Positions 1 through 29,585 of a DNA stretch of 47,787 nucleotides are shown piece by piece (within the stretch, counting starts at the first letter, position 1; the number at the start of each line of letters is the position of its first letter). This DNA comes from a bacterium (GTDB lineage: Bacteria; Actinomycetota; Acidimicrobiia; Spongiisociales; Spongiisociaceae). The stretch spans positions 1 through 47,787 of the forward strand of contig JAPPHZ010000049.1 of NCBI GenBank assembly GCA_028820935.1. The letters run 5' to 3'. A program made the translations under genes and the position numbers. A model generated the notes under the pieces. That model was not told where the DNA came from and searched no databases. It saw only the letters and a list, made by a program, of their open reading frames with translations.

Positions 1-2
1 AC

Positions 3-280
3 ATGGCCCACACAGCCCGAGCCGAGGGATGGGACCCCCTCGAGCTGTTGGTCAAGGTCCTCGCCGAAGAAGTCACCGCACGGGAAACACACGGCGGCCA
101 AAACCGCATCCGCGCGGCCCGATTCCCCCAGACAAAGACCCTCGACGACTTCGACTTCGCCCACCAACGGTCAGTGTCACGAGCCCAGATCGCGCATCTA
201 CACCAACTCGACTTCGTCCGCGAAGCCCACAACGTGATCTTCCTGGGCCCACCAGGCACCGGCAAAACACACCTCTCCAT
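3..280 (+). mobile_element. istB: IS21-family istB fragment (truncated at both ends)
   Basis: Encodes the early part of IstB, the AAA+ helper ATPase of IS21-family transposition. The reading frame opens about 30 residues inside a normal IstB. It shows the family's conserved run RIRAARFPQTKTLDDFDF, then DFAHQRS, and the Walker A stretch GPPGTGKTHLS. At about base 280 the similarity stops abruptly, right after Walker A. The next bases belong to the minus-strand relaxase gene. No IS terminus is visible at this junction, so this is not a clean insertion end. It may be a deletion, a recombination scar or an assembly join inside a repeated IS. A possible IS21-type end at the other edge of the window (47733 onward) has the same orientation, which would fit one IS copy broken by contig ends. 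Confidence 0.8.
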
Positions 281-3200
281 GAGTACGGGGTCTTTGTCGG
301 TGTAGGTGTCGGCGATGGCCCGGTGGCCGCGGATGCGTTGGTGGATGTCACCGCCGCCGAGGTGTTGTTGGATGTGGGGCCAGGGTTGTGGGAGTCCGTT
401 GCGCCAGTGCTGGAGGAGGGCGGCGGCGCTGAGACTGGCGGGGTCTTCGCCTGGGGGGAAGGTGACGACGGTGGTGGGGACATCGGCGTGGTGGGCTTGG
501 TCCAAGACTTTGCGCTGGGCATCCTGCCCGGATCCATCTCCGTCGAACGCTGCGATGAGGTGGTGGGCGCCGACGGCGAGGATACGGTGGAGGTGGGAGT
601 CGGTGAAGGCGGTCCCGCCGGTTGCGACCACGTTAGTGAGGCCAGCGCGGTGGGCGGCTATGGCGTCAGTGTAGCCCTCAACTATGGCGGCTGTTCCGCT
701 GTTGCGTATTTGGTGGGCGGATTCGGCTATGCCGTAGAGGGTTTCGGTTTTGCGGTAGAGGGAAGTGGTGCGGGTGTTGAGGTATTTAGGGGCCTTGGGG
801 TCGGTGTTGGTGGGGAGTTTGCGCCCGGCGAACCCGATCACGTCTCCGCCCAGGTTCCGGATGGGGAACACGACTCGGCCGCGGAGGACGTCGTAGGTTC
901 GCCCGGTTTTGCGGCTGATAGTAGCGACGCCGGAGGCGACGGCTGTGTCGTCGTCTTGGAGGGTGTTAGTTAGTCCTCTCCATTGGTCGGGCGCCCACCC
1001 GAGCTTCCACTTTTTCCGGTCGTCGGGTCCGATCCCCCGCTCGGTCAGGTATCGGCGGGCGTCTTCGGCGTGGGGTGAGTGGAGGAGTTGTTGGTGGTAC
1101 CAGTCGGCGCTACGGCGGAGCAGGGCTAGTTCGGGTTCGTGGCCGCGGGTATCGGCCCGCCCCGGTGGGGTAGGAGCGGGCAGGGGGATGGGTGGCAGGT
1201 TGGGCGGTTGCCGTGTGACGGCGGCTTGTTGTTGTTGGGTGGCTTGGGTCCAGGGAACCGGGACGGGTGCTGTGGGTGGTTGGGCTGCGCCGGCGATCAC
1301 CTGTGCGGTTTGGTGGTTGGCGTGGTGCCAGACGGCGGTGAGGCGGGCGGCTGTTGCGCCGTCTTCGATCCAGTCTGCTATAGCCTCGTACCAGTGCGCC
1401 CGGTCTGTAGCGGCGAGGTCCGCTCCGGCGGGGTTTGGGGGTAGTTGGGTGTGGAGGCGACTACGGGCGGCGTCCAGGGCTTCGAGGGTGGTTGCCCACC
1501 GCCGGGCACGTTGTGCTCTGAGGGTGGCCCGCACCGCCGATGCCCATTGTGTTTCGTCTTCGCTCAGTTGGTGGTGGCTGTGGGGGGTGAGGAGGTCACG
1601 GAGGGTGGGGTCGGCGACTGCGGCCATGAGAGCGACGGTGTGGTCGGCGGCTGGGCGGGCACCGACCCGGCGTGCGAGTTGGTAGCGGGCGACCAGGTCC
1701 AGGAGAGGACCTGGGTCGTCGAGAGGATGGGGGGCGGGCTGGTTGGCCCAGCTATCAGCCAGCGTCAGGAACGGCTCGAAGTGGTCAGCACCCCACGCAT
1801 CGGCGGCGGCTTGGACGGCGGGGTCGGGCGCGGGTTCCGCCACTGCTGGTGGTTTGTCCGCTTCGGCGACAGGATCCGGATCGGGGGTGGTGTCGTCGCC
1901 GCTGGGGGGTAGGTCGTCGGGATACAACCAGTCGTCGTGGTCGGCTACGGGTGGCCCGAATAGTGCCTCTAGGTCTTCGCCGTCCTCAAGGGCGGCCACG
2001 AGGATGTCCTCCCACTCCCGGGCGGCCTCGTCAGCGGCGGCCTGTTGGTCGAGCCACGCTTCGATATCGGAACTGACCCGAGCCTCGATACCTTCCCGAC
2101 TGGCTGTTGCTGCGGTCGCCTGCCCGAGCGAGGCTCCGCCGAGAACGGCGAGATCCGCAAGGGTGGGCATCGGTGTGGTGTGGGGGCTGTCTGCAATCTG
2201 TCCGAGATGCGCGGCGGCTACGTCAGCTGACACGAGTTGTGATCCTGCGGGCACGGTTAGGGGATGTGCGGAGCCGCGTTTGAGTACGGTTTCGATTATG
2301 TGATCGGGTGGTAGGTGGTCGGGTGGGGTGTCGGGGTCGTACTGTGCTTGGTCGGTGACGACCATTAGGTGGTTCTCGTGGCGGCCGCGGGTGAGCCCCA
2401 CATACAGCTGGGCGCGGCGGCTGTGGACGGTGATGGCGCACAGCGCGGCGTCGGTGGTGAGGGACTGGACACGGGTCTGTGTGGTGGCGTAGCCCAGGTC
2501 GAGGTGGTCGACTGCGTAGGAGGCGGGGAGGACGACCGTGACATCTTCGTGGGCGAGGCGACGGGCGGTCACAGGCCCCTCTTTGTCTGCTCCGGTGATA
2601 ACCCAGCGGTCGCCGTTGCGTACCCACTGCCCATCGGACGCGACGATGCGGCGGTTGTTGCGGCGGGTGGCCACCGTGTCTCCCACCCGGATAACACCGT
2701 TGCCGGCGCCCTGCACTCTGTGCCCGGTTTCGCCCGCCCGGTGGCGGCGGGCGGCGATCTCAGTGTTGATCTCCCCAACCAGGCTGAGAGTGGGGGCAGT
2801 GATGATCGTATCCAGCCCACGGCGTTCCTCCCACCACGCAGCGGCGAAGCCGGCCACTTCCGCTTCGGTGCTGTCATGGACGCGACCCCGCTTGTGGTGG
2901 TAGTCGAGCGCCGTCTTCTGGCCTTGGCGTAGCCCGATCGTGGCGCGGGCCTCGTCATGGTCCGAAAAGCGCCACAGCTCCGACAGCACCGCGGCGGGCA
3001 CCAGGTCAGGCCGATCAGACAGGGCGTGGAACACACCACCGGCGCCGACTGCTCCTTGCTGGGCGGTGTCACCGACGAGGATCATCCGCGCCCCGACCTG
3101 GGCGGCCCGCCCAGCCAATGCGGCGAGGGTGCGGGTGTCCAACTGTCCGGCTTCGTCCACGATCACCCACCCGCCTTGCGGTACCCGGTCGTCGGCTATC

Positions 3201-4867
3201 GCCGCTAGCGCGGCCGTCTCCGCCGCCACATCGAGGGCTTCGCCCAAGTTGGCGGCTGCGGTGGCGGTGGGTGCCACAGCGAGGACCTGGTCGCGGCCGA
3301 CCGCCCCAGCTACCCGGCCCAACATTGCGGTCTTGCCCGACCCGGCAGGGCCCAACACCAGCACCCCGTTGGTGTCCGCCTCGAGGATGGCTGCGACCGC
3401 GGCGGTCTGATCTGATCCAAGCCCATCGGTGTCCGCTTCGGCGCTGTCGGCGTCGGCTTCGCCAGCGAGCCATGACACGGCGGCTACTTCGGCTGCGGCC
3501 AAGCCGGGGGAGTACCAGCGCCCGTCCCGTTCCACCAGCTGGGCGGTGACCCGCTCCCAAAGGCCGGCGGCCAACTGCCCGAGAGTGGTCTGGGGGTCGA
3601 TGTCGCGGCCGTGGAGATCTGCGCTGGCGGACAGGGTGGCCCACACAGTCCGGAGAATGTCGGAACGAGTCAGCCCCCGAGACGCTGTACCCAACTGCTC
3701 CAACTGTGCCACGACCGCGGCGTCCACGGTGTCGGGAAGGCTGGGGGTGGGGTCGGCGACCAATACCTCGACGCGGTCGTATGGGCCGGGCTCCTGCCGG
3801 GGAGTAGAGCGTAGGCCTGCAGCGAGTGTTTCGGGGGTGACCCCGGCGGCTTCGGCTTCGTCCCGCCAGCGGGCATGGGGGTCGCCGTAGGTCTGTTTGG
3901 GGGTGCGAGTGTGACGCTTCGCCCGATCCCAGAGGTCGAGCCGCTCAGCCGGGGTGGGCTCCCGTTTGTGCTCAGCCTCGAAGGCGCGGACCTTGGCTTG
4001 GGCGACCTTGGCGATATCACGGTGGCGGGCGGACCACTCCGCCATCAGACCGTCCGGGCGTCCCGCCAGCTCGGCGTGCCAGTTGTCACCCACACGATCC
4101 CAAACCCAGCCCAACCGCTGCGACAACTCAGCCCGCAACACCGCCGCCCCCACCATCGCCGCCGCAGCCGCGTTCCGATACAACAAACGGCCGTCAAGGG
4201 TCCGCCACTTACCATCCTCACAGCGGACCCGGTTATGGACAATCAAATGCGCATGGACATGAGGATCACCGGCCCGGCTCGTCCAATGGTCGAAACGGGC
4301 GATGGTCGCCCCCTCAGGTACCTCCACCCGGACCACCCCGTTACGACCAGCACGGCTCGCAACAGCCTCCGACTGGAGGAACCCCACCACCGCCCCGGTA
4401 CTGACATCCCAAGCCGCTTCGATCTCCTTACGATCCGCGGCATCCGCCAGCGCCCACGCCGCGCTCACCGACTTCGGAGGCGAATACACCATGTCGAAAG
4501 CCGAGAACTTGCGCCGCCGGCGCACCACCCCCGCCCGATCAACGAAGGACCCGCCCGGCCGGTAACGGCGGCCCAACTGCTCCCCGCTCGAAGGGTCCAC
4601 CGCCGACAGCGACGCCGCCAACTGCTCGGGCGTTACCACCCCACCCTCAGTGACTCCCATCGCCCCGGCTGCGGCCCACCGCCCCGCCAGCTCGCCATGG
4701 TTGCCCGTGTAATACCCGACAGCCGGCGCGACACCCGATCCCGGGCCCGGGCTACTACCGGCCGCCGCCTGCCCTCCGCCGCCAACCGACCCGGCAGCTC
4801 CCGGCTGTTTCCGCCCGGTGTAGTAGGCGACGTGTTCGACCCCGACCTTGGCTATGTAAAGCGACAT
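281..4867 (-). CDS. MobF relaxase fused to RecD-like helicase and DnaG-type TOPRIM primase core (C-terminus truncated)
   Basis: Conjugative relaxase that should nick at oriT, unwind and lead the strand into the recipient. I translated the frame from ATG 4867 and found no stop to the window edge; plasmid-derived sequence runs to about residue 1529. Seen: a Tyr pair at Y15-Y16, the TrwC signature FDMVYSPPKSVS, and the three-His metal site PHVHAH (H203, H205, H207). The helicase follows, with Walker A GPAGSGKTAM (from residue 506), Walker B VIVDEAGQ (568) and a C-terminal YVGLTRGRHENH motif (822). After an acidic/proline linker comes a DnaG-like module: YLTERGI and KLGWAPDQW near residue 1275, EGYTDAI with E1397, and FDGD with D1442 and D1444. 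It has no zinc finger. Helicase fusion is standard for MobF; a TOPRIM primase core behind it is, to my knowledge, unusual. The start has a -10-like CATTAT seven bases upstream, suggesting a leaderless transcript. Confidence 0.9.
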
Positions 4868-5552: not shown

Positions 5553-5566
5553 GGGACACATGTCCC
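5553..5566. promoter_or_regulatory. Site A palindrome
   Basis: GGGACACATGTCCC, a perfect 14-bp palindrome with a centre variant. It lies between the two site B groups upstream of the primase-like gene. Confidence 0.7.
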
Positions 5567-5674
5567 ACTCTCCACAGCCGCCGGCCGCTCCTCGCTGGTT
5601 GGCCCGCAAGCCCCCTCGGCCTCTGTCGGAAGCGTCCGTCCTGTCTAACTGCTTGCGGGGGCCTAGGTCAGAGG

Positions 5675-5772
5675 GATGCGCGACCGCTCGGGGGGAGATG
5701 CGCGACCGCTCGGGGGGAGATGCGCGACCGGTCGCGGTTGAGCGCGACCCCAACGGGGTGGATCCGCGACCG
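5675..5772. repeat. Site B iteron array upstream of the primase-like gene
   Basis: Five iterons of the type GATGCGCGACCG. Cores start at 5678, 5700, 5722, 5742 and 5764, giving spacings of 22, 22, 20 and 22 bp. The third unit contains the palindrome CGCGACCGGTCGCG (5723-5736) followed by GTTGA before the fourth core. The last unit runs into GGGTTTCGG and then GGGTGGCAGTGT, the same order seen before the transfer operon. Unlike the relaxase and transfer operon, the start codon here lies about 66 bases further on, behind a ribosome binding site. Confidence 0.85.
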
Positions 5773-5838
5773 GGTTTCGGTAGGCGGGTGGCAGTGTGGG
5801 TACCGGAGCAAGGGACAACTGGGGCAGGAAGGATCAGC

Positions 5839-7098
5839 ATGGGTTCGAGAGCGGCGGCGCTGGTGCGGGAAGCGACCGATATCGTGTCGCTTTTCGAGGA
5901 GGTGACCGAGGTCACCCGCTCAGGCGCCGCCGCTGCGATGGCGCTCTGCCCCTTTCACTCCGACAAAGACACGCCTTCGCTGAGTATCAGCGCCGACAAG
6001 GGTGTGTACAACTGTTTCGGCTGTGGCGCTCGGGGCGACGCTCTGACCTTCGTCCAACAAGCGCACGGTGTGGGCTTCGCCGAGGCGCTGTCGATGCTGG
6101 CGGCGCGGGCGGGCATCGACCTGGGACCCCAGACGGCCCGCCAGTCTCGGGCGGCGCGGTTGGGCAACATCCGGTGGCAGGCAGCCGAGTTCTATCATGT
6201 GCTGCTCCGCGTGGACCCCACGGCGGCGCCGGCGCGGGGCTACCTCCGCCGTACCCACGGTTTCGGCTCGTCCGACGTGGTCGGCTTCACCGTAGGCTGG
6301 GCTCCGGCGGACCCGTCGGCGGTTACCAGCGCACTCCGGGATGCCGGCGTGTCCGGACGCGACATCGCCGCATCAGGGGTGGCCAACCTCGGCATGGGAC
6401 GGGCAGGCCGGGTGGTGTACCCGGTGGTGACCGGGCCGGATCGGGTGGCCGGTTTCGTCTCCGAAGACTCATCCGGGCGAACGTTCCCTCCGTCCCGTGG
6501 GTCCCGGTTGCTGTTCGGCATGGGCCAGGCACGGTCAGCGATAGCACGGGAGGGCACAACTGTCGTGGTCCCGGACGCGGCCGCGGTGATCGCCTGGCAC
6601 AGGGTCGGGGTAACGAACACCGTAGCGCCGGCCACGCCCCGCCTGAACACCGACCACCTCGCGACGCTGGCCCGGTTCGGCTTGAGGGCGGTGATCGTCC
6701 CACGGGACCCCGACAGCACCCGCGGACTGTTGGCCGACACGCCCACCGTTCGTGGTATCGACGTCTACATCGCAGAAGCTCTCAGCGTGGCCGGCCGCAA
6801 CCTCAGCCAGGCCGACGCTCTAGCCGCCGCAAGATCCGCAGTACCGATCTCCGAAGCCCGGCTAACCACCGCACTGTCCGGCTACCGAACGGCCGCCACG
6901 CCAACAACCCGGCGGGCCCTGCTCGCCAACGCCCGGCAACTCATCGAAGACGAGACGGACGAGCACACACGGTGGGAACTGGCGGCAGTCGCTTCCGGCA
7001 TTACCGGTTTGCCGCTCGAGCGCGTGATGGGGGCGGCGACGCTGCTCCCCCCAAAGGAGGCACAGCGCCCGCTCGCCCGGGCGGCACTGGCGCTGTGA
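5839..7098 (+). CDS. CHC2 zinc-finger primase-like protein with a TOPRIM lacking the catalytic Glu
   Basis: A 419-residue DnaG-like protein. The start at 5839 follows GGAAGG and places ATDIVSLFEEV, typical of a DnaG N-terminus, at residue 12. The zinc finger is complete: C37-x2-H40 and C59-x2-C62, in CPFHSDKDTPSLS and YNCFGCGARGDALTFV. A TOPRIM-N-like segment follows (YLRRTHGF, GFTVGWAPAD), then a degenerate TOPRIM. There the usual EGYxD is replaced by PDAAAV, so the catalytic Glu is gone, while a D-x-D survives as RDPD. Alone it may not prime. The minus-strand relaxase next door has the opposite set of parts, an intact TOPRIM without zinc finger, so the two may work together. It could instead be a replication accessory or DNA-binding regulator. 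Confidence 0.85.
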   Translation: MGSRAAALVREATDIVSLFEEVTEVTRSGAAAAMALCPFHSDKDTPSLSISADKGVYNCFGCGARGDALTFVQQAHGVGFAEALSMLAARAGIDLGPQTARQSRAARLGNIRWQAAEFYHVLLRVDPTAAPARGYLRRTHGFGSSDVVGFTVGWAPADPSAVTSALRDAGVSGRDIAASGVANLGMGRAGRVVYPVVTGPDRVAGFVSEDSSGRTFPPSRGSRLLFGMGQARSAIAREGTTVVVPDAAAVIAWHRVGVTNTVAPATPRLNTDHLATLARFGLRAVIVPRDPDSTRGLLADTPTVRGIDVYIAEALSVAGRNLSQADALAAARSAVPISEARLTTALSGYRTAATPTTRRALLANARQLIEDETDEHTRWELAAVASGITGLPLERVMGAATLLPPKEAQRPLARAALAL

Positions 7099-10090: not shown

Positions 10091-10978
10091 ATGAGTTCTC
10101 TCACAGTTGAGTTGCGTCCTGACCTGGTGGACTGGCCGCACACGCGGCCGGTTAGGGGCGCGCTCGTCCCGGTTGTCAACACCCTGCGGGAGCAGGACCG
10201 GGTGATCGCCACTCTGGGTGATCTGGCCGAGTTGCTTCCCGACCGGGCGCCGCAGAGTACCGCCCGGGCGTTGCGGGAGGCGGGGTGGCTGTTCCCGATG
10301 CGGACCAGCGGTGTGTGGGGGTTCGCCGGGGCCCGGTTGGGCGCTCCTCGGGCGCCGGGGTATTTGGAGCTGCACGCTCGGATGCGGGTGCGGCCGGACA
10401 CGCCGGCGTGCATCGCTGGCAAGACCGTGGCCATGCTCCATAATTGGCTGTGGCGGCCTGTCGGGTCGGCTATCGGTATGCCTCCGGGAGTCAAGGTTCC
10501 CCGCTGTTTGGGTGACCTCACCGTTCACCGGTGGGATCCGCAGATCGATCTGGACGAGTTCTTGGGGCTGCCGATGTGGAAGCCTGAAACGTTGCTCTGC
10601 TATATGGCAGCCCGACCGTCGCGGATCTCCTGGGAGGACGTACAGGAGTGGTTGTGGGCGGTGTGTGAGAACCTCGAGCTCGATCTGCTGCTGGCCGAGT
10701 TGGAGGGAAGGCCACGGGCGGTGTGGATGAAGACCGGCTACCTCGCGGATGTGGGGGAGCGGCCGCATCTCGGCGAGGCCGTCGTCGCGGCGGCGCCGGC
10801 GGGGGGGCGGGGCCCCTATGTGCTCGGGTGGCGGGAACGCAACTTGCCGTATTCGGTTTGGGACAGCCCGGTGCGGGTACCCAAGTACGGGATCGTCGAT
10901 TACCTGTTGCCGAGACGGTGGTGTCCGAAGCTTGGTTTCGAGCCGTTCGAGCCGCCCAAGACGTGGGAGTTCGACTGA
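10091..10978 (+). CDS. abiEi: AbiEi-type antitoxin, type IV toxin-antitoxin system
   Basis: A 295-residue protein with the layout of AbiEi antitoxins: an N-terminal winged helix (VVNTLREQDRVIATLGDL, then TARALREAGWLFPM) followed by a C-terminal domain with TVAMLHNWLW and PRCLGDLTVHRW. Antitoxins of this family repress their own promoter and counter the nucleotidyltransferase toxin without binding it. An ATG six bases upstream is also possible. I chose 10091 because a -10-like TACCCT stands seven bases before it, which suits a leaderless message. Its stop overlaps the putative GTG start of the toxin gene. The pair probably stabilises the element or gives abortive phage defence. Confidence 0.75.
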   Translation: MSSLTVELRPDLVDWPHTRPVRGALVPVVNTLREQDRVIATLGDLAELLPDRAPQSTARALREAGWLFPMRTSGVWGFAGARLGAPRAPGYLELHARMRVRPDTPACIAGKTVAMLHNWLWRPVGSAIGMPPGVKVPRCLGDLTVHRWDPQIDLDEFLGLPMWKPETLLCYMAARPSRISWEDVQEWLWAVCENLELDLLLAELEGRPRAVWMKTGYLADVGERPHLGEAVVAAAPAGGRGPYVLGWRERNLPYSVWDSPVRVPKYGIVDYLLPRRWCPKLGFEPFEPPKTWEFD

Positions 10979-11961
10979 GCAGCCTCTCCTCAGCGATCAA
11001 GCAGGCGTACCCGGCCGTCACCAAGAGGGGATCGGTTGTTGAGGAAGCGGCGGTGCTGGACGTGGCGTTCGATCATCTCCTCTACGGACTTCACGAGCGG
11101 GGCGTGTATGAAGTGGTCGGCCTGACGCTGAAGGGCGGCACGGCGCTGCGGAAGTACCACCTCGGGCATCGGAGCCGGTTCTCCTTCGATCTTGACTTCG
11201 ACGCTGAGGAAGGCGCTGACGAGTTGGTCGCTGAGGAGATCGACGGGATGGCATTCCGTCACTTCGAGTTCGCAGCGCACGAACGCCGGGGGCACTACAG
11301 CACCCGTGTGGCCACCGACCTACTTCCCGGCGGTGGGTATCTCCAGGCGAAGATAGACTTCTCCACCCGGGGCCTTTGGCTCCCGCCCGAACAACGCAGC
11401 CTCATCCACACGCCCGTCCAGGCCGCCTACCCGTTCGATCCCGGGTTCCCAGTCCCGGTGATGCGCGTGGACGAGAACGTGGCGGAGAAGCTCGGACGCT
11501 GGGAGGGGGAGCCTCTCATCCGTGACCTCTACGACCTGGCCGCTCTCAGCACCAGAATCGCCGACCCGCAGCTCGTCACCCGGATGTGGGTGCTGAAAAG
11601 CTACGCCGGGATGGTGAGCGGCAGCCGCCGCGGGCGCGGCGGGCCTGCTGCCTCGATCGACACGTTGACCGCCGACAAGCGCTCCGCCGGGTTCGTGCTC
11701 GATGACTTGGCGCTGCCCGCAGACCCTCCTGACACAGCCAAGCAGACCCTCGTCGAGAGCTACCTGCCCAAGGTGGACCAGCTGTGCCGCACCGTGGCTG
11801 ACCACATGACCCCCGACCTGTACCGCTACGCCGACGACAGGGGCGCTCTCAGCTGGGAGGTAGGCCAAGAGATCGCCGAGATCGAGCGGCAGGCGCTGGC
11901 CGCCCTCACCCGCGACGACCCGCACAGGAACCCGTCAGATTTGGGGCCGGGCTGGCTCTGA
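10963..11961 (+). CDS. abiEii: AbiEii/AbiGii-type nucleotidyltransferase toxin
   Basis: A 332-residue nucleotidyltransferase-fold toxin. The family motif reads LKGGTALRKYHLGHRSRFSF followed by DLDFDAEEG. The GG-T, the R-S/F context and the D-x-D supply the nucleotide and metal site. A later segment, ENVAEKLGRWEGEPLIRDLY and DLAAL, matches the conserved C-terminal block of the family. I chose GTG 10963, which overlaps the antitoxin stop, because the frame upstream of it lies under the antitoxin gene. Members transfer nucleotides to tRNA or other substrates and arrest growth. Confidence 0.8.
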   Translation: MGVRLSSLSSAIKQAYPAVTKRGSVVEEAAVLDVAFDHLLYGLHERGVYEVVGLTLKGGTALRKYHLGHRSRFSFDLDFDAEEGADELVAEEIDGMAFRHFEFAAHERRGHYSTRVATDLLPGGGYLQAKIDFSTRGLWLPPEQRSLIHTPVQAAYPFDPGFPVPVMRVDENVAEKLGRWEGEPLIRDLYDLAALSTRIADPQLVTRMWVLKSYAGMVSGSRRGRGGPAASIDTLTADKRSAGFVLDDLALPADPPDTAKQTLVESYLPKVDQLCRTVADHMTPDLYRYADDRGALSWEVGQEIAEIERQALAALTRDDPHRNPSDLGPGWL

Positions 11962-13272: not shown

Positions 13273-15933
13273 ATGCGGGCGTCGGTTGTGGTGTTGAACG
13301 GTGGAAAGAAGGCTGACCCGGGGGGTGCTTTGGCACGCCGGGTACGTAATGCGGAGCCGGTGGAGTGGTCCCGCCGGGACTTGCGTATCGTGGGCGGCGA
13401 CGGGACGGTGGTGTGGGAGCAGGCAGGTGTCGAGTTTCCCACCGCCTGGTCGCAACAGGCCTGCCAGATCGCGGCGTCCAAGTATTTCTGGGGGAAGGTC
13501 GGCACCGCTGAGCGTGAGACTTCGTGGAGGCAGGTGCTGGAACGTGTGGTGGGGACGATCACCGGTTGGGCGCATGACGCCGGCTATTTCAAGGGGGAGC
13601 AGGCCGACCGCTTCGCCATCGACCTGTGGGAGGTATTAGCCCGGCAGGAGGCGGCGTTCAATTCGCCTGTGTATTTCAACCTCGGCTGTGAAGACCGGGC
13701 ACAACAGGTGTCAGCCTGCTTCATCCTCCCAGTGGGGGACTCCCTGCCGGAGATCCTGGACTGGATCAAGACCGAGGGGCTGATCTTCCGAGGCGGGTCG
13801 GGCGCCGGCGTCAACCTGAGCGCCATCCGGGGCAGCATGGAACAGCTATCCGGCGGCGGGGTAGCGTCCGGGCCTGTGTCCTTTATGGCGGGGGCTGATT
13901 CGAGCGCAGGCGCGATCCGCTCGGGCGGTAAGACACGGCGCGCGGCGAAGATGGTGCTTCTGGACGTAGACCATCCCGACATCGAGGAGTTTATCGCCTG
14001 CAAAGTAACCGAGGAACGCCGCAGCCGCGACCTGGCGGCCGCTGGGTGGGACATGTCCTTGAACGCCGACCGTGGGCTGCGGTACCAGAACGCCAACAAC
14101 TCGGTGCGTGTCAGCGACGCCTTTATGGAGGCGGTGATGGCCGACAGCGAGTTCGAGTTGGTGGCTCGCACGACCGGTGAAGTGACCAAGACGGTACGAG
14201 CTCGGGATGTGTGGCGGCAGGTCGCCGAGGCGGCGTGGGAGTGCGCCGACCCTGGTGTGCAGTACTCCACGACGATCAACCGTTGGCATACCTGTCCTGC
14301 CTCGGGGCCGATCAACGGCTCGAACCCGTGTTCCGAGTATGTCCACCTCGACAACACAGCGTGCAATCTGAGTTCTATCAACCTGCTCCGGTTCGTCGGT
14401 GACGACGGCGCGTTCGACTTGGACGGCTTCGAGTATACGGTTCGGACGATGATCACCGCTATGGACGCTGTGGTGATCCCCGCGGACTACCCGACTAAGG
14501 AGATCGGTGACCGCACCCGCCGGTACCGGCAGCTCGGGCTCGGCTACGCGAACCTCGGCGCGGCGCTGATGGCGTTGGGCCTGCCTTACGACTCGTCCGC
14601 TGGCCGTGCTTGGGCGGCGGCGGTGACCGCGTTGATGTCGGCAGTGGCGTACGACCAGTCGGTGGAACTGGCTGCCGAGCTGGGTCCGTTCGATGGGTAC
14701 GGCGACAATGCCGAGCCGATGCGGGCGGTGCTGGAGATGCATCGGGAAGCCAGTTACAAGATCGGCCCGCTCGCTCCCGCTCAGATCGTTGCGGCGGCTC
14801 AGGCGATGTGGGACCGGGTGGTGGACCGCTCCCGGCTGTACGGGGTGCGTAACAGCCAGATAAGCGTTTTGGCGCCGACGGGGACCATTTCGTTCATGAT
14901 GGATTGTGACACCACCGGGATCGAACCGGACCTGTCCCTCCTCAAGTGGAAGCAGCTGGTCGGCGGCGGGACTCTGCAGATGGTGAATGGGACGGTGGGA
15001 CGTGCGCTCAAGACCTTGGGCTACGGCGAGGCTACGGCCTCGGCCATCGTGAAGCATATCGAGGGTACCGGCTCGGCGGTGGACGCACCGGGTCTGCTGG
15101 GTGAACACCTCGACGTCTTCGCTACCGCGATGGGCGACAACCGTATCTCGCCGCAGGGTCATTTGCGGATGATGGCAGCGGTTCAGCCGTTCCTCTCGGG
15201 GGCGATTTCCAAGACGGTCAACCTCGATGCTGAAGTGACCGTAGAGGACGTGGAGGAACTGTTCCATCTGGGCTGGGAACTCGGGCTGAAGGCGGTGGCA
15301 ATCTACCGGGACGGTTCCAAGTCGGACCAGCCGATGACCATTACCGACACCAGTTCAGGGACGACGGACAGCCCCCCGCAGTTGCCGGAACGCCGGGAAC
15401 TGCCCCGCAGCCGCCAGTCGTGGACGACCGCATGGCGGGTAGCCGATTACTCCGGGTACTTGACCGTCGGCCTATATGACGACGGTCAGCCTGGCGAGGT
15501 TTTCGTTAACGGCGGCAAGCAGGGTTCGACCATGGCCGGCCTGCTGGACTCCTGGGCGATCTCCGTGAGCCACGGACTCCAGCGAGGTGTCCCCCTCGAG
15601 AGCTACGTCCGGGCCTACAAGGGGATGAGCTTCCAGCCAGCTGGGGTCACCGACGACCCTGACGTGAGGGTGGCCACGTCGCTACCCGATTTCCTGATGC
15701 GGATCATGGCCCTGCGGTTCCTGGACGAAGACACGCGTCAGGGACTGGGCGTGCTGTCCACCGCCGAGAGAGGCGCCCGGCCGATCCCCGGTCTGGAGAC
15801 AGCCGGCGTAGTCTCCACCGTGACGGAACACGCATCGACTGCGCCGCTATGCCAGGACTGCGGTATCCAGATGGTCCGGGCTGGCTCATGCTACGCCTGC
15901 GGCCAGTGCGGAACGACGAGCGGCTGCAGCTGA
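13273..15933 (+). CDS. nrdJ: Class II (adenosylcobalamin-dependent) ribonucleoside-diphosphate reductase
   Basis: Reduces ribonucleotides to deoxyribonucleotides with a B12-derived radical, with or without oxygen. The 886-residue protein carries the core of the family: SACFILP with C149, GGSGAGVNLSAIRG, the catalytic NPCSEY (N351, C353, E355), the redox partner C364 in NTACNLSSINL, and the APTGTISFM loop. The C-terminus ends with the reducing Cys pairs CQDCG and CGQCG. The start follows GAAAGG. It is controlled by a site B array, unlike a chromosomal housekeeping copy. A plasmid copy may supply dNTPs in the recipient during strand transfer and replication. The C-terminal region after residue 690 includes a TSCPD-like segment (VNGGKQGSTMAGLLDSWAIS). 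Confidence 0.95.
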   Translation: MRASVVVLNGGKKADPGGALARRVRNAEPVEWSRRDLRIVGGDGTVVWEQAGVEFPTAWSQQACQIAASKYFWGKVGTAERETSWRQVLERVVGTITGWAHDAGYFKGEQADRFAIDLWEVLARQEAAFNSPVYFNLGCEDRAQQVSACFILPVGDSLPEILDWIKTEGLIFRGGSGAGVNLSAIRGSMEQLSGGGVASGPVSFMAGADSSAGAIRSGGKTRRAAKMVLLDVDHPDIEEFIACKVTEERRSRDLAAAGWDMSLNADRGLRYQNANNSVRVSDAFMEAVMADSEFELVARTTGEVTKTVRARDVWRQVAEAAWECADPGVQYSTTINRWHTCPASGPINGSNPCSEYVHLDNTACNLSSINLLRFVGDDGAFDLDGFEYTVRTMITAMDAVVIPADYPTKEIGDRTRRYRQLGLGYANLGAALMALGLPYDSSAGRAWAAAVTALMSAVAYDQSVELAAELGPFDGYGDNAEPMRAVLEMHREASYKIGPLAPAQIVAAAQAMWDRVVDRSRLYGVRNSQISVLAPTGTISFMMDCDTTGIEPDLSLLKWKQLVGGGTLQMVNGTVGRALKTLGYGEATASAIVKHIEGTGSAVDAPGLLGEHLDVFATAMGDNRISPQGHLRMMAAVQPFLSGAISKTVNLDAEVTVEDVEELFHLGWELGLKAVAIYRDGSKSDQPMTITDTSSGTTDSPPQLPERRELPRSRQSWTTAWRVADYSGYLTVGLYDDGQPGEVFVNGGKQGSTMAGLLDSWAISVSHGLQRGVPLESYVRAYKGMSFQPAGVTDDPDVRVATSLPDFLMRIMALRFLDEDTRQGLGVLSTAERGARPIPGLETAGVVSTVTEHASTAPLCQDCGIQMVRAGSCYACGQCGTTSGCS

Positions 15934-16693: not shown

Positions 16694-16891
16694 CGACACC
16701 GGCAAACCAACCACCCGACCGAACGAACGGTCGCTTTCACCTCCTGCGGCTCCCCTCGATCTCGAGCACAGCTCGGGGTGGGCTCCCGGCCTGAACATCG
16801 CTACCGGACCGCCCCTGAGCGAGCCGACACCGCGTGTGCTAATGGTGACATGTTTCTGGCTGAAACAAACCCTGCGGTGGCCCAGCCGTTG

Positions 16892-16989
16892 GATGCGCGA
16901 CCGCTGAAGGGTGGATGCGCGACCGCGGAGGGGCGGATGCGCGACCGGTCGCGGTTGAGCGCGACCGCGGAGGGGTGGATGCGCGACCG
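16892..16989. repeat. Site B iteron array upstream of the transfer operon
   Basis: Five iterons with cores at 16895, 16917, 16939, 16959 and 16981, spacing 22, 22, 20 and 22 bp, the same as at 5675-5772. The palindrome CGCGACCGGTCGCG lies at 16940-16953. The last core runs into GGGTTTCGGGGG. The 328-bp gap between 16694 and 17021 holds no gene besides this array. Confidence 0.85.
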
Positions 16990-17021
16990 GGTTTCGGGGG
17001 TGGGGTGGCACAGTTGTCTCC
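16978..17021 (+). promoter_or_regulatory. Transfer operon promoter, site B type
   Basis: ATGCGCGACCGGGTTTCGG ends in GGG exactly 21 bases before ATG 17022, the same geometry as the relaxase promoter. A weak -10 (CACAGT) lies seven bases before the ATG. With no Shine-Dalgarno in that gap, the message is probably leaderless. Confidence 0.5.
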
Positions 17022-17783
17022 ATGTCGTACGCGACTATCAGCCCTAGTACCGCTTCCCCGGCCGCTGCCCTGTGCGACGAAATGTTCGAGGCACTTGTGG
17101 CGGCCGTGGAGGTAGCGGCGACCGAGCCCGAGGCAGCGGCGGCTCCCCCGACTATCGGAGGTGACGCTGCTCCGGTCCGGGAGTGGACACCGCCGGCGGA
17201 CGCTCCGTGGAGAGGCGGGACGCTGGACACGGTGGCACAACTGGCGGACATGTGCGGCGGTGTGGTCTCGGACGAACTGCTCGCCCCTGAGGACCGTACC
17301 CGCGTGTTCGCGCGCCGCCTGGCCAGGGCTGGCCAGCTGGCAGGTAGTTCGTACACCGACGGACGGTTGGTGGCCGCTGCCCTCGATCAAGACGGGGATC
17401 CCGGGCTACCAGCCGCACAAACCAAAAAGGAGGAGCCAACCATGGTCGATGTGATAGTGAACCTCATGTACAAGTACCAGGTGCTGGTGATGGTCGGCTT
17501 CGGCTTCGCCACCGCTGGATTGATGCTGTGGGCGTTTGTCAAGACCCGCTCAGCTCCCGCAGTATTGGGCATGGCAGCCGTAGGCATCGGAGCGATGGTA
17601 CTGGTAGCGAACATGACTACGGTCGCCAACCGCTTCGGCGAGGACGTGCTCGGCAACGAGACGATCACCATCGAGCAGGTAACCGGCAGAAGCGCCCCCG
17701 GCCAGTCATCGACCGCGCCCGGAGGCGGCGGCACCCCCACCACCGTCCCCTGCGACGACGAGTTCAGCCCCGGATCCTGCTAG
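17022..17783 (+). CDS. VirB2-like small membrane protein with long N-terminal extension
   Basis: A 253-residue frame. The C-terminal 113 residues start at an internal in-frame ATG (17442) preceded by a strong AAAAAGGAGGAGCC. They have two hydrophobic helices (VLVMVGFGFATAGLMLWAF and PAVLGMAAVGIGAMVLVA) and a polar tail, the layout of VirB2/TrbC-type channel pilins. The first 140 residues are soluble and Ala/Pro-rich. Two products may be made from one frame, or the upstream part may be an independent protein whose stop has been lost. It lies directly before virB4, the usual place of a VirB2 or VirB3 homologue. Confidence 0.7.
   Translation: MSYATISPSTASPAAALCDEMFEALVAAVEVAATEPEAAAAPPTIGGDAAPVREWTPPADAPWRGGTLDTVAQLADMCGGVVSDELLAPEDRTRVFARRLARAGQLAGSSYTDGRLVAAALDQDGDPGLPAAQTKKEEPTMVDVIVNLMYKYQVLVMVGFGFATAGLMLWAFVKTRSAPAVLGMAAVGIGAMVLVANMTTVANRFGEDVLGNETITIEQVTGRSAPGQSSTAPGGGGTPTTVPCDDEFSPGSC
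17442..17783 (+). CDS. Nested VirB2-like protein from an internal start
   Basis: Short form of the preceding gene in the same frame, 113 residues. Its Shine-Dalgarno is the strongest in the operon, while the long form appears leaderless. Two transmembrane helices and a Thr/Gly-rich C-terminal tail ending in CDDEFSPGSC suggest the mature channel subunit. Confidence 0.5.
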   Translation: MVDVIVNLMYKYQVLVMVGFGFATAGLMLWAFVKTRSAPAVLGMAAVGIGAMVLVANMTTVANRFGEDVLGNETITIEQVTGRSAPGQSSTAPGGGGTPTTVPCDDEFSPGSC

Positions 17784-17807: not shown

Positions 17808-20588
17808 ATGGCGAAGAAGGGCAGCCGGACATGCCAATCGTTCACGTCAGCCCGCCGCCGCCCGACCGAGCTGGGCAGGATCCCAGGGCTTACGCTCCCG
17901 TGGACGTTCACGCTCCCGCAGGTGGCCGTGTTCATGGCGGCTCTCATGGTCGGCCTGTTCCTGGTCCGGCTGGGGATGACAGCGTGGGTGCTGGTACCTC
18001 TGTTGGGCGGCGCAGCTGCCGTTGGTCGGGCCTTGCGACGCGTCAGCGTGGACGGCCGCGGGTTCGCTGCGGGGGCTGGCGGCAAGGTGCGTTTCTGGAT
18101 GCACCGCCAGTCCCACAAGGAGTTGACGAACCGTTCCGCCGACTTGGTGGCCGGCAATGTCGCGGTCGGCGACGACCATTCGGTGTGGCTGCTGTTCTCG
18201 GTGGAGCCCGCCAACTACGGGCTGCTGGCTGACACTGCCGAGGGGCTGCAGTCCCTCGGCGCGGTGGAGCAGCTGGTCCTGGCCGTGGGCGGGGAGCGGT
18301 GGCGCCTGCTTTCGACTGTGGAGCAGTTGAGCGCCGGCACGGTCGCCGACCGGATGCGCCGCGCTTCGCAGGCGACGTCGTGGGAGGCCGAGATCGCCGC
18401 TGAGACAGCGCGTATCCGCTCCGCCGAGTTGACGGAGCGGCGCTTCTGGTTGTGGGTGCAGGCCGGGCACGTACCTATGGGTTCCAACCTGGTGGGCTGG
18501 TGGCACCGCGCGCTTCGTACCTTCGGGTACACGCGGGCTGCCCGAGCCGACGCTATCGGCTGGGAGCGTCTGGCGGCCCGGACCGAACAGGTCGTGTCCC
18601 GCGCGGCGGGGTCGGTGCCGCTCCGAGCGGCGACCCTGGACGAGGTGACGGCGTTGTTGGACCGGGTACCTTTCGGGGCTACGACTCCCCGGGAGCCGGC
18701 GGAGCCTGACGATTATCCCCACTTGATGCTTCCCCAGTCGCGACCCGACGCTTTGACAGTCGGTCGGGGCATGGTGGAAGGGGCGTCTGCGTGGCACCGC
18801 GGCGCTGCCGAGTGGTGCGAACCGACCAGTGGTGTGGTGCTGGCCGCTACCCGTCGCGGAACGGTGGCCCACACAACTGCTGCGCTGTCGGAGATCCCGT
18901 TCACGTGGACGGTACCTGGCGGCGGCGAAGTGTTGTGGGCGTTGGACGCCCTCGAGGACCCCTGGGATTGGCTTGTGGACGTGACCGTCACTCCCCACGC
19001 GGTAGCGGCCGCCCGGGCCCGTAACCTGGACCGCCAACTCGCCGGCCAGTGGTCACAGCATGACGGAGACCCTGCCGGGGCCCCACCGGAGCTGCGTCTA
19101 GCTGTCGAGCAGGTGGCAGGTCAGCGGGAGGCGCTGGCGGCACGCACCGACAGCGACGAATACAACATCTGTGTCCTGTTCTCCACGGCGGTGCGGGTGG
19201 TAGGCGACGACGTAGCCGCGGCCGTGGAAACGCTCCGCTCCCGCACGCACCGCCTCGAAGCCCGGGCGGCGGCGGTGGGCATGTCCGTGGCTGTCCCATC
19301 CGGAGACCAGATCGCCGCCCGGGGAGTGTGGCTTCCCCGCGTGTCCTCGGCCCGCTACCTGCATGACTACATGCAGGTGGTGCTTTCCGACGGGCTGGCC
19401 GGGTTAGGTCCGCTGCTCCAATCACGCCTCGGCGACCCGCAGGGCGCGCTGCTGGGCGTGCATGACGAACGCGGCTGGCTGGAACCGATCCTTTTCGACC
19501 CAACGCTGGGTCCCCGTGCCAGATCTGTGGGAGCTGAACCGCAGTCCCCCTCGATCGGCGTGGTCGGCAGCCTGGGGTCCGGCAAGTCCGTGTTCTTGAA
19601 GCGGTGCTTGTGGACGACTCTCGCTGCTGGGGGTCAGTGCGTGGTCGTTGACCGCAGCGAACGCGACGTGGGCGAGTATGTGTCGTTCGCCGAGGTTGTT
19701 GGCCAGGTCACCGACCTGAAGGTGGAGGTGATCGACGTCACTGAGGGGTCGGTCTCCTTGGACCCCCTCCGGACGCTTTCTGATCGGAGGGCCGCAGCCG
19801 AGGTCGCGGTCCGGTTGCTGTCCCACGTTCTGGACCTTGACGCCCGCTCCACGGTGGCTACCCAGCTGGGCCGGGCCGCGGCTCGATGCCACGGCCAGTC
19901 GCTGCTGGAGTTGATGGACAAAGCCGCCGACGGAGACGAGACCACTCCCCCAGCGGTGTGGTCTGAGCACCGCAACCTCATCGCACACCTCGCTGAGAAC
20001 ACAGTCGCTGGGGCATTGTTCGACCCGCGTCGGCGGCCGGCGGACTTGGCCGCCGACTTGGTGGTGCTCCACGCCCCCGGCCTGGCCTTGGCTGACATAA
20101 CGGACACCGCCGCCGACATCGCGGCGGCTGCGGTTGTGTTGGGGACGCTGCTGGTAGGCCACGCCGCGACGTTTGCGCATCCCCGCTTCGCCGCCCTGCT
20201 TCTGGACGAGGCATGGTCGCTGGTTCGGGACCCGAAGGCGCAGGCCTCGGTCGTAGAGGCCTTACGAGACGGGCGTAAGCACAACACGGGCGTGTGGATC
20301 GGCACGCAGTCGGCAAACGACTTCGCCTCCACCGAACTGCGCGAGCTGTTGGGGCAGGTTGCTGTGTTCCGTTCCCGTAACCTGGAGGCGGCGACCGCCG
20401 CCGCCGCACTCGCCGGTGCCGACCCCGACATAGCCGCTCCCCTGCTGACCGACCTGCCTACGGGCACGATGCTCTGGCGGGACATATACGGCCGCCTGGG
20501 CGTAGTCGACGTGCTTCTGCCAGCAGACCCCCGCGCCGCGGCGGCTATCGACACTACACCGGCGCCGGCGCTGGTGACCCAGAGATGA
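17808..20588 (+). CDS. virB4: VirB4-like conjugation ATPase with PrgI-type N-terminus
   Basis: The energising ATPase of the mating channel, 926 residues. Residues 30-75 hold two membrane helices in a PrgI-like (VirB3-like) domain fused to the ATPase, as in many Gram-positive systems. Walker A is GSLGSGKS at 587-594 and Walker B is ALLLDEAW with D800 and E801. RDGRKHNTGVWIGTQS and the late GTMLWRDIYGRLGVV match the family C-terminus. It starts behind GGGGAGG. Its stop overlaps the next start (ATGA). Confidence 0.92.
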   Translation: MAKKGSRTCQSFTSARRRPTELGRIPGLTLPWTFTLPQVAVFMAALMVGLFLVRLGMTAWVLVPLLGGAAAVGRALRRVSVDGRGFAAGAGGKVRFWMHRQSHKELTNRSADLVAGNVAVGDDHSVWLLFSVEPANYGLLADTAEGLQSLGAVEQLVLAVGGERWRLLSTVEQLSAGTVADRMRRASQATSWEAEIAAETARIRSAELTERRFWLWVQAGHVPMGSNLVGWWHRALRTFGYTRAARADAIGWERLAARTEQVVSRAAGSVPLRAATLDEVTALLDRVPFGATTPREPAEPDDYPHLMLPQSRPDALTVGRGMVEGASAWHRGAAEWCEPTSGVVLAATRRGTVAHTTAALSEIPFTWTVPGGGEVLWALDALEDPWDWLVDVTVTPHAVAAARARNLDRQLAGQWSQHDGDPAGAPPELRLAVEQVAGQREALAARTDSDEYNICVLFSTAVRVVGDDVAAAVETLRSRTHRLEARAAAVGMSVAVPSGDQIAARGVWLPRVSSARYLHDYMQVVLSDGLAGLGPLLQSRLGDPQGALLGVHDERGWLEPILFDPTLGPRARSVGAEPQSPSIGVVGSLGSGKSVFLKRCLWTTLAAGGQCVVVDRSERDVGEYVSFAEVVGQVTDLKVEVIDVTEGSVSLDPLRTLSDRRAAAEVAVRLLSHVLDLDARSTVATQLGRAAARCHGQSLLELMDKAADGDETTPPAVWSEHRNLIAHLAENTVAGALFDPRRRPADLAADLVVLHAPGLALADITDTAADIAAAAVVLGTLLVGHAATFAHPRFAALLLDEAWSLVRDPKAQASVVEALRDGRKHNTGVWIGTQSANDFASTELRELLGQVAVFRSRNLEAATAAAALAGADPDIAAPLLTDLPTGTMLWRDIYGRLGVVDVLLPADPRAAAAIDTTPAPALVTQR

Positions 20589-22834: not shown

Positions 22835-24851
22835 GCCAACCTTCCGGAAAGCGCTGGCCGCTACCCGCCGTGGCGTCCGTGTCGTCCGTGCCGCGGCCGG
22901 CGACCCGAAAGCGCTGGCCCGTATCGGTGTCGCTGCGGCCCGGCGGGCCCCCCGGGTGGCCGCTGCCGCGGCGGTGCTGTTCGCCGCCGGTGCCATAGCA
23001 GTGGGCAGCGGATTCGGCACAGCTCCGGGTTCGCCGTTCGGCGCCGGCGACCAAATATGGGCCGCGTACCAACTCGCCGACAGCGTCGTCTGCCACCGGG
23101 GCGGCACAGCCATGCTGTGGCCCCCGGAAGTGGACACCCAGCCGGAGGGAGACCGAATCGATTGGCGTCTGGTCGCCGCCGTGGGTCAGGTCTCGTCCGC
23201 TCACGCCGCCGACGTCGCTATCAACGCGTTCGGGGACACACTCGCCCCACTAGTCGGCCCCCACGAACGCTCAGACACCGACGGGGGCCGGTTCGACGGC
23301 TCCGCAGCCGCCGACGCCCGGGTAGGCCCGCTAGCGCTGTGGCCGGCCGAGATCGCCGCAGAGGGCGTGGACGGGAACTTCGACCAGATCGTGGACCCCC
23401 ACAACGTTTGGGACGCCGCCGTCACCGCAGCGGCCTCGCTTTGCGTCCGCGGCGCAGCCGACGACCCGGTCGGAGCGTTGCTGGAGTGGCGGGGCGACCG
23501 CGCATGGGCCGAGCGGGTACTGGCCGCCTGGGAGGACATCACCTTCCAAGCTGCAGCTGCGACGGGTTCTGTGCCATGGGGGGCGCCGCTCGCGTACACA
23601 CCTAGGTCCGGGAGCGGTGGCGGACCGGTGCTGGCCGCTTTGCTCGACCGCTGGGCGGGGGCGGGTACGGCAGTCACCTGCGAAGGCGGGGTCTGTGGGG
23701 TAAAGCTCGGCTTCGTCCCCGATGACGTGGCCGCCTGGGCAGGGCTGCTGGAAGCCGGATTCGGAGCTCCCGCCGCAGTTCCGAACTGGGGTTTCACCGC
23801 GGCGGGCGACCCCAGCCGCCACACCCGTGTCATGCCCTGGACCGCAGGGCTGTCGTGGCTGTTCCCCGCCACTCCCCCACCTCAGCCGTACCGCTACACG
23901 CCACCGGCCTGGTGGACGTTCACGCTGCCCCCCTCGGCGCCGGCGTGGACGGAACCGACGGAAGGGCACCTGCTGCGCATCCCCGCCGCCGCGGGAACGG
24001 CCGTGTACGCCCCGACCGTGGGTACCGCCGAGTATCACGCCGGCGGTTGTGCCCACATCCACGACCCGGACGGAGCCTTGTGGGAATTGTGCGGCGTGTA
24101 CGCGCACCCGGGCGGGACAGCTCCCCTACCGTCGGGGCCGTTGCAGAGGCTGCTCCGAGACTGGCCCGAACTGGAACGGGCCGCCCGGCTGCCGCCACCC
24201 GCGGTGCTCATCAACCTGGGAACGTTCTCGTGCCGGACGGTGCACGACTCCGACACCTGGTCACCGCACAGTTGGAACAACGCTGTAGACATCGCCGTGG
24301 ACGTGGACGGCGACCTGGACCGAGAGCAGCAGGACATGGATTCCGCCGTCTCCCACGACGCTCTGAGCCGGCTCACTGCGGCGCTGGCCCGGACGATGCA
24401 CAACCCGCGTACGTCTGTCCTGGAGGACGGCTCCACCCTGATCCAGGACCAGGCGCCACAGCGGGGCCGCTACCAGATACGCAAACTCGTATTCAACCTC
24501 GACTACCGGCCGGGCACCGCGGTGTCTGTCGTTCGCCACGACGAGCACCTCCACGTCGACTTCTGGGTCGGACGCCCGCAGCCCGCCGAACCCGACTGCG
24601 CCCCACACGATGTAGCCGCAGGAGAAGGGATCGGTGTGGCTCCGGGCGGGTTCGTCACGGTCGCGGTTAGCGGCCCCGAGGGGCGGCGTCTCTGCCCTCA
24701 GGTGCTGTTTCGCTCCTGGCAGCGGGGCGACCCGCTCACTCCCGCCGCCCTAGAAACCGAGCTGCTGGCCGAGGAGGAAGCTACCGGCGAGGCGGCCAAA
24801 GCAAATGGCGATGCTTCCGAACCCGAGGCGCTGGAGGGGTGCGATGAGTGA
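22827..24851 (+). CDS. Cell-wall hydrolase of the mating channel: transglycosylase-like plus M15-like peptidase domain
   Basis: A 674-residue membrane-anchored protein, probably the VirB1-like enzyme that opens peptidoglycan. Residues about 48-66 form the anchor. Residues about 110-220 resemble a lytic transglycosylase (DWRLVAAVGQ, later DPHNVWDAAVTAAASLC), but the catalytic Glu expected after GQV is a Ser (GQVSSAH). The C-terminal domain has the metal pattern of M15-type D,D/L,D-peptidases: H481 and D488 in SPHSWNNAVDIAV, and H574 and H576 in DEHLHVDFW. So peptide-bond cleavage seems intact while glycan cleavage may be lost. GTG start overlapping virB6; its stop overlaps virD4. Confidence 0.7.
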   Translation: MVKPTFRKALAATRRGVRVVRAAAGDPKALARIGVAAARRAPRVAAAAAVLFAAGAIAVGSGFGTAPGSPFGAGDQIWAAYQLADSVVCHRGGTAMLWPPEVDTQPEGDRIDWRLVAAVGQVSSAHAADVAINAFGDTLAPLVGPHERSDTDGGRFDGSAAADARVGPLALWPAEIAAEGVDGNFDQIVDPHNVWDAAVTAAASLCVRGAADDPVGALLEWRGDRAWAERVLAAWEDITFQAAAATGSVPWGAPLAYTPRSGSGGGPVLAALLDRWAGAGTAVTCEGGVCGVKLGFVPDDVAAWAGLLEAGFGAPAAVPNWGFTAAGDPSRHTRVMPWTAGLSWLFPATPPPQPYRYTPPAWWTFTLPPSAPAWTEPTEGHLLRIPAAAGTAVYAPTVGTAEYHAGGCAHIHDPDGALWELCGVYAHPGGTAPLPSGPLQRLLRDWPELERAARLPPPAVLINLGTFSCRTVHDSDTWSPHSWNNAVDIAVDVDGDLDREQQDMDSAVSHDALSRLTAALARTMHNPRTSVLEDGSTLIQDQAPQRGRYQIRKLVFNLDYRPGTAVSVVRHDEHLHVDFWVGRPQPAEPDCAPHDVAAGEGIGVAPGGFVTVAVSGPEGRRLCPQVLFRSWQRGDPLTPAALETELLAEEEATGEAAKANGDASEPEALEGCDE

Positions 24852-27196: not shown

Positions 27197-27478
27197 ATGA
27201 CTGGCCACCCGACCCCCAGCCCAACCCCTCAGACCGGAGACGGCCCGGCCGACGTGCTGTCGGACGACTACTACCTGACAGAGCACATCGAGGACGTTCC
27301 CACAGCCGACCTCGACGTTGTGTTGGCGGACGGCCGACCCGTGGACGTCTACCGGGATTCGGTGGACGGCCGCCGTTACGGGAGGCATCCGTACGGGTTC
27401 ACGATCGGATACGACGAGACAGACAACCAGCCGCCGACAACCGCCGAAAGGAGCTCCGATGGGATCGAAGGTAAGTGA
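27197..27478 (+). CDS. Small protein sharing the VirD4 C-terminal motif
   Basis: A 93-residue acidic protein behind AGGAGAG, one base after the virD4 stop. Residues about 50-75 (VDVYRDSVDGRRYGRHPYGF then TIGYDE) match the last 25 residues of VirD4 in pattern: V-Y-x4-DG-x2-Y-x2-HP-x-G-x-T-x-G-x-D. Such a shared tag could be a docking domain recognised by one partner, perhaps the relaxase. It could also be a duplicated fragment of the coupling-protein tail. No known family recognised. Confidence 0.65.
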   Translation: MTGHPTPSPTPQTGDGPADVLSDDYYLTEHIEDVPTADLDVVLADGRPVDVYRDSVDGRRYGRHPYGFTIGYDETDNQPPTTAERSSDGIEGK

Positions 27479-28847: not shown

Positions 28848-29568
28848 ATACACCGCCCTGAAACGCTCCCTGATGGGAGTTGGCGTAGCGGCCGCACTGG
28901 TCGTGGTCGTGCTGTTGTGGTCTCGGTGCGCTACTCCCTCGACTCTGTATTCGGGGTCGGTGACGGTAGACCCCCAGCAGCTCCTCGGCCCGACCAACGC
29001 TGTCGCGGCCGCCGAGCGGGCGTTACAGGAGTGGGCGCCCGGCTCGGATCCGCAGCTGGTGGAAGTGGCGTGGCGCCGCGGCGGGCGGAGCATAAGAGTG
29101 ACCGCCGACGTGGACGGATCAACCGTGCAGGTCCTGGTCGAGGATCACGGCCCTAACGGGTGGGTGGTACCCCACCCGCCGCGGCCTACGGAGGGGCTCG
29201 CCCCGTCGTCGTGGTGGCCGCTGGACGACCCACCGTCGGCGGCAGCGACCGACGGCCGCTGGCAGACCGCGGTCGGGTTCCTCGACGCCTGGCTTACGGG
29301 CGGCGACACCTCACGGTGGACCGCCACCGAATACCACCCGCCGGCGCTCGCTACCTACTACCCGGACTGGCGGATCACCGGCGCCGACCCCGAGTTCGTT
29401 CCGGTGCCTGGCACCGACCCTGCGGTGTCGGTCGTCACTATCGAGTACGAAGCGGCCACACCCGGCACCGCCACCGCCCGCATCTGGCGGGTGCATCTGG
29501 CGGTCGCTCAGGACGCCACCGGCCGGTGGACGATCACCGCAGTAGCCCATGGCCCTCCGACTGGCTAA
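28828..29568 (+). CDS. VirB8/TcpC-like channel component
   Basis: A 246-residue single-pass membrane protein: helix at residues about 14-33 (LMGVGVAAALVVVVLLW), then an extracytoplasmic domain. Residues 150-240 (VGFLDAWLTGGDTSRWTA, VVTIEYEAATPGTATARIW) have the strand and helix order of the NTF2-like fold used by VirB8 and TcpC. The start behind AAGGGGAGG overlaps the ardC end by 20 bases. It is the last gene of the transfer operon. Confidence 0.65.
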   Translation: MAASDSEYTALKRSLMGVGVAAALVVVVLLWSRCATPSTLYSGSVTVDPQQLLGPTNAVAAAERALQEWAPGSDPQLVEVAWRRGGRSIRVTADVDGSTVQVLVEDHGPNGWVVPHPPRPTEGLAPSSWWPLDDPPSAAATDGRWQTAVGFLDAWLTGGDTSRWTATEYHPPALATYYPDWRITGADPEFVPVPGTDPAVSVVTIEYEAATPGTATARIWRVHLAVAQDATGRWTITAVAHGPPTG

Positions 29569-29585
29569 GAGAAGGAGCGGATACG

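Follow-up and report, generated by a model that had tools for sequence, protein, structure and literature searches.

A DnaG-type primase core fused to a MobF relaxase-helicase on a putative conjugative element of the Acidimicrobiia

Introduction

The MobF proteins of F and R388 are textbook relaxase-helicases, and the review consulted likewise describes the family as a relaxase joined to a helicase. A gene at one end of the contig analysed here, from a bacterium of the family Spongiisociaceae (JAPPHZ010000049.1; C49, complete at 47,787 nt and referred to below as the window), continues behind the helicase into the catalytic core of a DnaG-type primase. What might a primase core be doing on a relaxase? 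A recurrent third enzyme on a MobF protein would couple the delivery of a strand to second-strand synthesis in the recipient, and it becomes directly testable whether priming is a step that the relaxase provides for itself. Such a relaxase-borne primase could also help explain how elements of this kind establish themselves in distant hosts.

Results and Discussion

Three enzymes in one open reading frame

Translation of the minus strand shows a single stop-free frame from 4876/4867 to the window edge. Both positions are candidate ATG starts, the one at 4867 agreeing with the N-termini of homologues. A first-pass annotation, made from the letters alone, had read this frame as an uninterrupted relaxase, helicase and DnaG-type core, a reading which translation, Pfam and NCBIfam all bear out (Table 1). 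That is, the profiles TrwC (E=8e-61, 206 bits against a cut-off of 25), AAA_30 (aa 483-666, E=6e-38, 131 bits), DNAG_N (E=8.5e-31) and Toprim_2 (E=2e-15) were each matched above cut-off, and the NCBIfam MobF model NF041492 scored 190 bits against a cut-off of 100, values far beyond chance. Sequence matches in the PDB assign the first part of the protein to TrwC/TraI and the last part to DnaG RNA-polymerase domains. No MobQ relaxase domain is present; by Pfam and NCBIfam, the relaxase is MobF.

Table 1. Features of the window discussed in the text (aa, residues of the fused protein)
Feature	Position	Strand	Remarks
IS21-type istB fragment in place of the native C-terminus	1-280	+	at the contig edge
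MobF relaxase + SF1B helicase + DnaG core fusion	281-4867	-	1529 codons kept; C-terminus truncated
TOPRIM, aa 1395-1477	437-685	-	E1397, D1442, D1444 and third-motif acid kept
DNAG_N, N-terminal subdomain of the DnaG catalytic core, aa 1257-1382	722-1099	-	
Linker	1100-2350	-	no Pfam match, no CHC2 zinc finger; partly conserved in homologues
RecD/TraA-like SF1B helicase, aa 474-839	2351-3448	-	Walker A 506-513; Walker B D571 E572
TrwC relaxase domain, aa 49-340	3848-4723	-	H194/H205/H207 metal ligands; Pfam, NCBIfam, TrwC alignment
MobF motif I region	4709-4825	-	Y15/Y16 and Y52/Y53; sequence and alignment
DnaG paralogue (pseudo-primase): CHC2 zinc ribbon intact, RPD/TOPRIM degenerate	5839-7098	+	divergent from the fused gene
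CHC2 zinc ribbon of the paralogue	5863-6123	+	Zn_ribbon_DnaG, E=2e-23
VirB4/TraC-like conjugation ATPase	17808-20588	+	
VirD4/TraG-type coupling protein	24805-27195	+	
ArdC-like anti-restriction protein (ArdcN + MPTase)	27318-28847	+	without primase domain
TadA/VirB11-type ATPase	37698-39308	+	

At the level of single residues, the relaxase assignment needed one correction. The metal site had been placed at H203, H205 and H207; alignment with TrwC retains the latter two, at TrwC spacing, and replaces H203, which is Gln in a second copy of the gene in the same genome (contig C47), by H194 as the third ligand. The two tyrosine pairs of motif I are both kept in the C47 copy, and nearly so in the homologue from a related metagenome-assembled genome (MAG; G003, see below); a Gly/Ala-rich insert separates the pairs in the window copy and is missing from the second copy. 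The RecD-like helicase, with Walker A (GPAGSGKT) and Walker B (VDEAG), was found as originally noted.

The primase core, too, has an intact active site, the three TOPRIM acids claimed for it being in place. All nine residues corresponding to K229, Y230, N232, K241, E265, D269, D309, D311 and D345 of Escherichia coli DnaG, which we take to be active-site residues, are present in the window core and conserved in all fused proteins with a complete core. By simple counting, dN/dS of the core is 0.21 (against G006), 0.43 (against G003) and 0.40 (against the C47 copy), values well under 1 and compatible with purifying selection. What the description as DnaG-like did not convey is that the zinc-binding domain is absent: Pfam detects no CHC2 domain (PF01807) in the window fused protein, none of the fused proteins examined has a zinc-binding domain, and a zinc-finger pseudo-primase is instead encoded next door. 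Nor did the untruncated C47 copy show a DnaB-binding domain. The NCBIfam model for the replicative enzyme, dnaG, scored 200.6 bits, below its cut-off of 283.6 bits.

The window copy is truncated at the contig edge

The frame had been followed to the window edge, and it is indeed free of stops that far; beyond 281, it runs antisense to an IS21 istB fragment and lies outside the gene. The interval from 1 to 280 shares 87% identity with part of contig C37, from the same genome, and also matches istB genes. With an insertion sequence (IS) fragment and the contig end occupying this interval, the native C-terminus of the window copy has been cut off. What was lost may be read from a same-genus fragment (L017/L028), which is 78-80% identical to the C-terminal part of the fused protein, continues across the window junction and reaches a stop about 40 residues on. 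Judged by this comparison, the window copy is short of its last ~40-45 residues, lacking its native end yet retaining TOPRIM. As a consequence of the truncation, function of this particular copy may be impaired.

The fusion recurs on other contigs and on closed plasmids

The window is a draft-genome contig that ends in an IS, which is what would be expected to favor an assembly or annotation artefact, that is, a chimeric frame. Several independent full-length homologues argue otherwise. The second fused gene of the same genome, on C47, is untruncated, encodes 1590 aa and shares 46% identity with the window protein; the MAG RHO1_bin_3 (G003), of the same family, carries a fused homologue with 65% identity; and the fusion is also found as one gene on closed plasmids of Pimelobacter, Nocardioides (pNOCA01, pCHL), Miniimonas, Dermacoccus, Variovorax PBS-H4 and Nocardiopsis, and on pTC1. 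These homologues refute a chimeric assembly, and we regard an artefact of any kind as having practically no chance of being the explanation. In particular, the frame is open between 2340 and 1150, the interval in which a frameshift or stop would have separated the two halves, and the homologues are fused there as well; neither do homologues stop short of TOPRIM. The 65% homologue and the C47 copy establish the fusion as genuine and show that the protein ends soon after the TOPRIM domain.

A scan of genome contigs found only the G003 contig, no further fusion appeared among the matches listed for 40 genomes of the same class, and the patterns used found no relatives on viral contigs. Many MobF proteins are without a primase core, even long ones such as that of Rhodococcus fascians (2063 aa). 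In Ornithinimicrobium and Ruania, the corresponding region is broken up among several annotated genes, while pTC1 (L052, 3901-10230; L009, 7617-13584) holds two MobF-primase modules, one fused into a protein of 2109 aa and the other spread over three adjacent genes. The Variovorax plasmid (L011, 7443-14528) is a betaproteobacterial one with an actinobacterial-type fused gene.

Most of the plasmid fusions are named just "MobF family relaxase" in the databases, so that some entries of that name conceal a primase. The suggestion that the arrangement is undescribed needs dividing: the fusion is not a one-off, occurring in several lineages and already deposited, and we found no description of it in the literature searched, mostly open-access papers, although the supplements of PMC5512222 may list it.

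Fused cores probably arose more than once

We also considered whether the fused primase cores all go back to one event, which the primase-core tree rejects: a single clade of all fused proteins was rejected by the AU test (p=1.7e-6, and 2e-4 with more rows), with stand-alone plasmid Toprim proteins falling among the fused cores. The relaxase-helicase tree likewise places the fused proteins in separate positions, requiring at least three state changes when only starred branches are counted. In Nocardiopsis, the domain order is relaxase-primase-helicase, with the DnaG core between the two domains that are adjacent in TrwC and TraI. Since the fused cores do not form one clade and this order differs, the fusion probably arose repeatedly.

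Related cores have been joined to another transfer protein as well. Genomes of the same order encode zinc-less cores, ~40-45% identical to that of the window, which are fused not to a relaxase but to the N-terminal domain of ArdC. At three loci (L065, L066, L067), such an ArdC-core fusion is divergently adjoined by an unfused MobF relaxase-helicase; all three lie in one genome (G024), which with L070 has at least four ArdC-DnaG-core fusion genes, and a further example is found in G090 (L068). G024 thus combines several related conjugative modules within a single cell. Support for grouping the ArdC-fused with the window-type cores is weak (73/35). With the core joined to ArdC there and ArdC encoded separately in the window, related cores have been attached to different transfer proteins.

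A candidate relaxase-borne primase for the transferred strand

The fused protein resembles the MobF relaxase-helicases TrwC of R388 and TraI of F in its TrwC domain, three-His site, paired tyrosines and C-terminal SF1B helicase, the difference being that those proteins end without a primase where the DnaG core follows in the window. Like TraC of RP4 and Sog of ColIb/R64, the core is a TOPRIM/DnaG-type primase of a conjugative element; TraC and Sog act in the recipient and are separate from the relaxase, whereas the window core belongs to the pilot itself. MobA-RepB' of RSF1010/R1162 (MobQ) also combines relaxase and primase in one polypeptide, but belongs to another relaxase family and has no helicase. 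Its primase is not of the DnaG/TOPRIM class. Finally, chromosomal DnaG shares the RPD/TOPRIM catalytic core at ~37% identity, but has a CHC2 zinc finger and a DnaB-binding domain, neither of which is found in the fused protein. TraC1 and SogL are Toprim primases that are transferred in conjugation and then start replication by priming in the new host, full-length transfer being described for TraC1 and ArdC of pSa (PMC5512222); there are also MobQ relaxases in which transfer requires a C-terminal primase (PMC12857230). Transferred TOPRIM primases and MobQ relaxase-primase fusions are therefore known, and what appears to be new is a DnaG core on MobF.

With three enzymes in one frame and their active sites intact, and by analogy with these systems, we infer that the protein most likely functions as a pilot which, once delivered, primes synthesis in the recipient. 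The fused core would be a plasmid primase for complementary-strand synthesis, comparable to RP4 TraC, ColIb Sog and RSF1010 MobA-RepB' and carried in by the relaxase, a reading to which we give a probability of roughly 0.6. As in other MobF relaxases, the protein would nick oriT, remain on the 5' end of the strand and be drawn as pilot through the type IV secretion channel, taking the primase core along; that a protein of this size can be transported is an assumption drawn from the same relaxases. Once in the recipient, the core might synthesise RNA primers on the single strand as it arrives, much as TraC and Sog do, such that host priming is not required; being tethered, it would act close to where the DNA enters or on a DNA loop.

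One element of the initial proposal has to be modified here. Priming had been placed at the 5' end of the transferred strand, and a primase core is indeed fused to the MobF protein; a primer near that end, though, would cover only the stretch up to the relaxase, making a single start inadequate. Since primers are extended toward the template 5' end, new ones would be needed as more of the strand enters, making synthesis discontinuous. What speaks against priming in the recipient is that the fused protein lacks two domains of DnaG, the zinc-binding one, by which the template is recognised, and the one that binds DnaB.

The same two missing domains would suit a core that is no working primase at all, serving the helicase instead as an accessory that binds DNA or synthesises RNA, for instance to load or regulate it. 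Yet the examined catalytic and metal-binding residues are kept in every fused protein with a complete core, and dN/dS of the core lies well below 1, making this quite improbable. Somewhat less far-fetched, but still unlikely, is a role in the donor or in vegetative replication: the core would prime the single strand that arises when the relaxase starts rolling-circle replication, standing in for a single-strand origin and having no particular task in the recipient. The paired tyrosines of MobF suit rolling-circle cycles, both pairs being kept in the aligned copies, and the helicase-mode copy of a MobF protein such as F TraI acts in the donor, which we count in favor of this alternative. The company kept by related zinc-less cores fits transfer better, as they are attached to ArdC or stand alone beside coupling proteins and transfer genes.

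A zinc-finger pseudo-primase is encoded next to the fused gene

Divergently from the fused gene, the window encodes a DnaG paralogue which has kept its zinc ribbon and lost E265, D269, K229, Y230, N232, K241 and D345 of the polymerase core (E. coli numbering). The divergent pair is also present in G003 (contig C88; 55% protein identity), where a second copy of the neighbour gene on contig C16 (L045) has no fused relaxase within the surrounding 19 kb. With dN/dS at 0.11 for the zinc domain (against G003) and 0.12 overall between both G003 copies, the neighbour gene evolves under purifying selection.

PMC6783573 assigns template recognition to the zinc-binding domain of DnaG and, citing Corn 2005, refers to evidence that this domain can act in trans on the polymerase domain of another molecule. 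It is possible, as a specific but unproven proposal, that the neighbour is a trans partner of the fused core and may supply template recognition in the lineage of the window element. Taken further, the two would form a split primase, the zinc-less core on the relaxase and the zinc-finger dead DnaG jointly priming the transferred strand in the recipient and licensed only when both are present; we consider this extended version tentative and, on balance, doubtful. AlphaFold2 models built from two-sequence alignments reached a mean pLDDT of 35 for the primase half and 47 for the neighbour, and were set aside.

A competing explanation, to which we would give a reasonable chance though one short of even, is that the pseudo-DnaG is unrelated to the fused core and targets the host replisome, for instance as a decoy or dominant-negative form of DnaG. 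In the tree it falls closest to chromosomal DnaGs from the host family (with weak support when more rows are included), the neighbour gene was not found with the fused element on C47, and none of nine plasmids encodes a CHC2 (PF01807) protein. Against this stand the divergent adjacency kept between the window and the G003 pair, and the combination of catalytic loss with zinc retention, the exact complement of the fused core. Either way, the alternative bears on the partner alone and can hold together with recipient priming by the fusion. The neighbour's absence from the C47 element does indicate that it is not a general requirement. Its position beside the fused gene makes the pair a natural system in which to test whether a zinc domain acts in trans.

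The short stretch at ~5560-5805, upstream of the gene for the zinc-finger protein, resembles a dispersed repeat together with 16879-17022, with translated matches on contigs C8, C22, C37, C5, C34 and C7.

Conjugative setting

Further along the window, VirB4-like, VirD4-like and TadA/VirB11-like ATPases together with ArdC are as expected of a conjugative element. The window also encodes an AbiEii-type nucleotidyltransferase (10723-11961) of the type IV toxin-antitoxin toxin family and a class II (B12-dependent) ribonucleotide reductase (13273-15933). The latter has a counterpart (L027, 9973-13173) beside the fused relaxase on C47, accompanied by an SNF2-type protein and ArdC. An SNF2/helicase-like protein of 2088 aa (29160-35426) in the window is 42% identical over 1429 aa to one encoded on C47.
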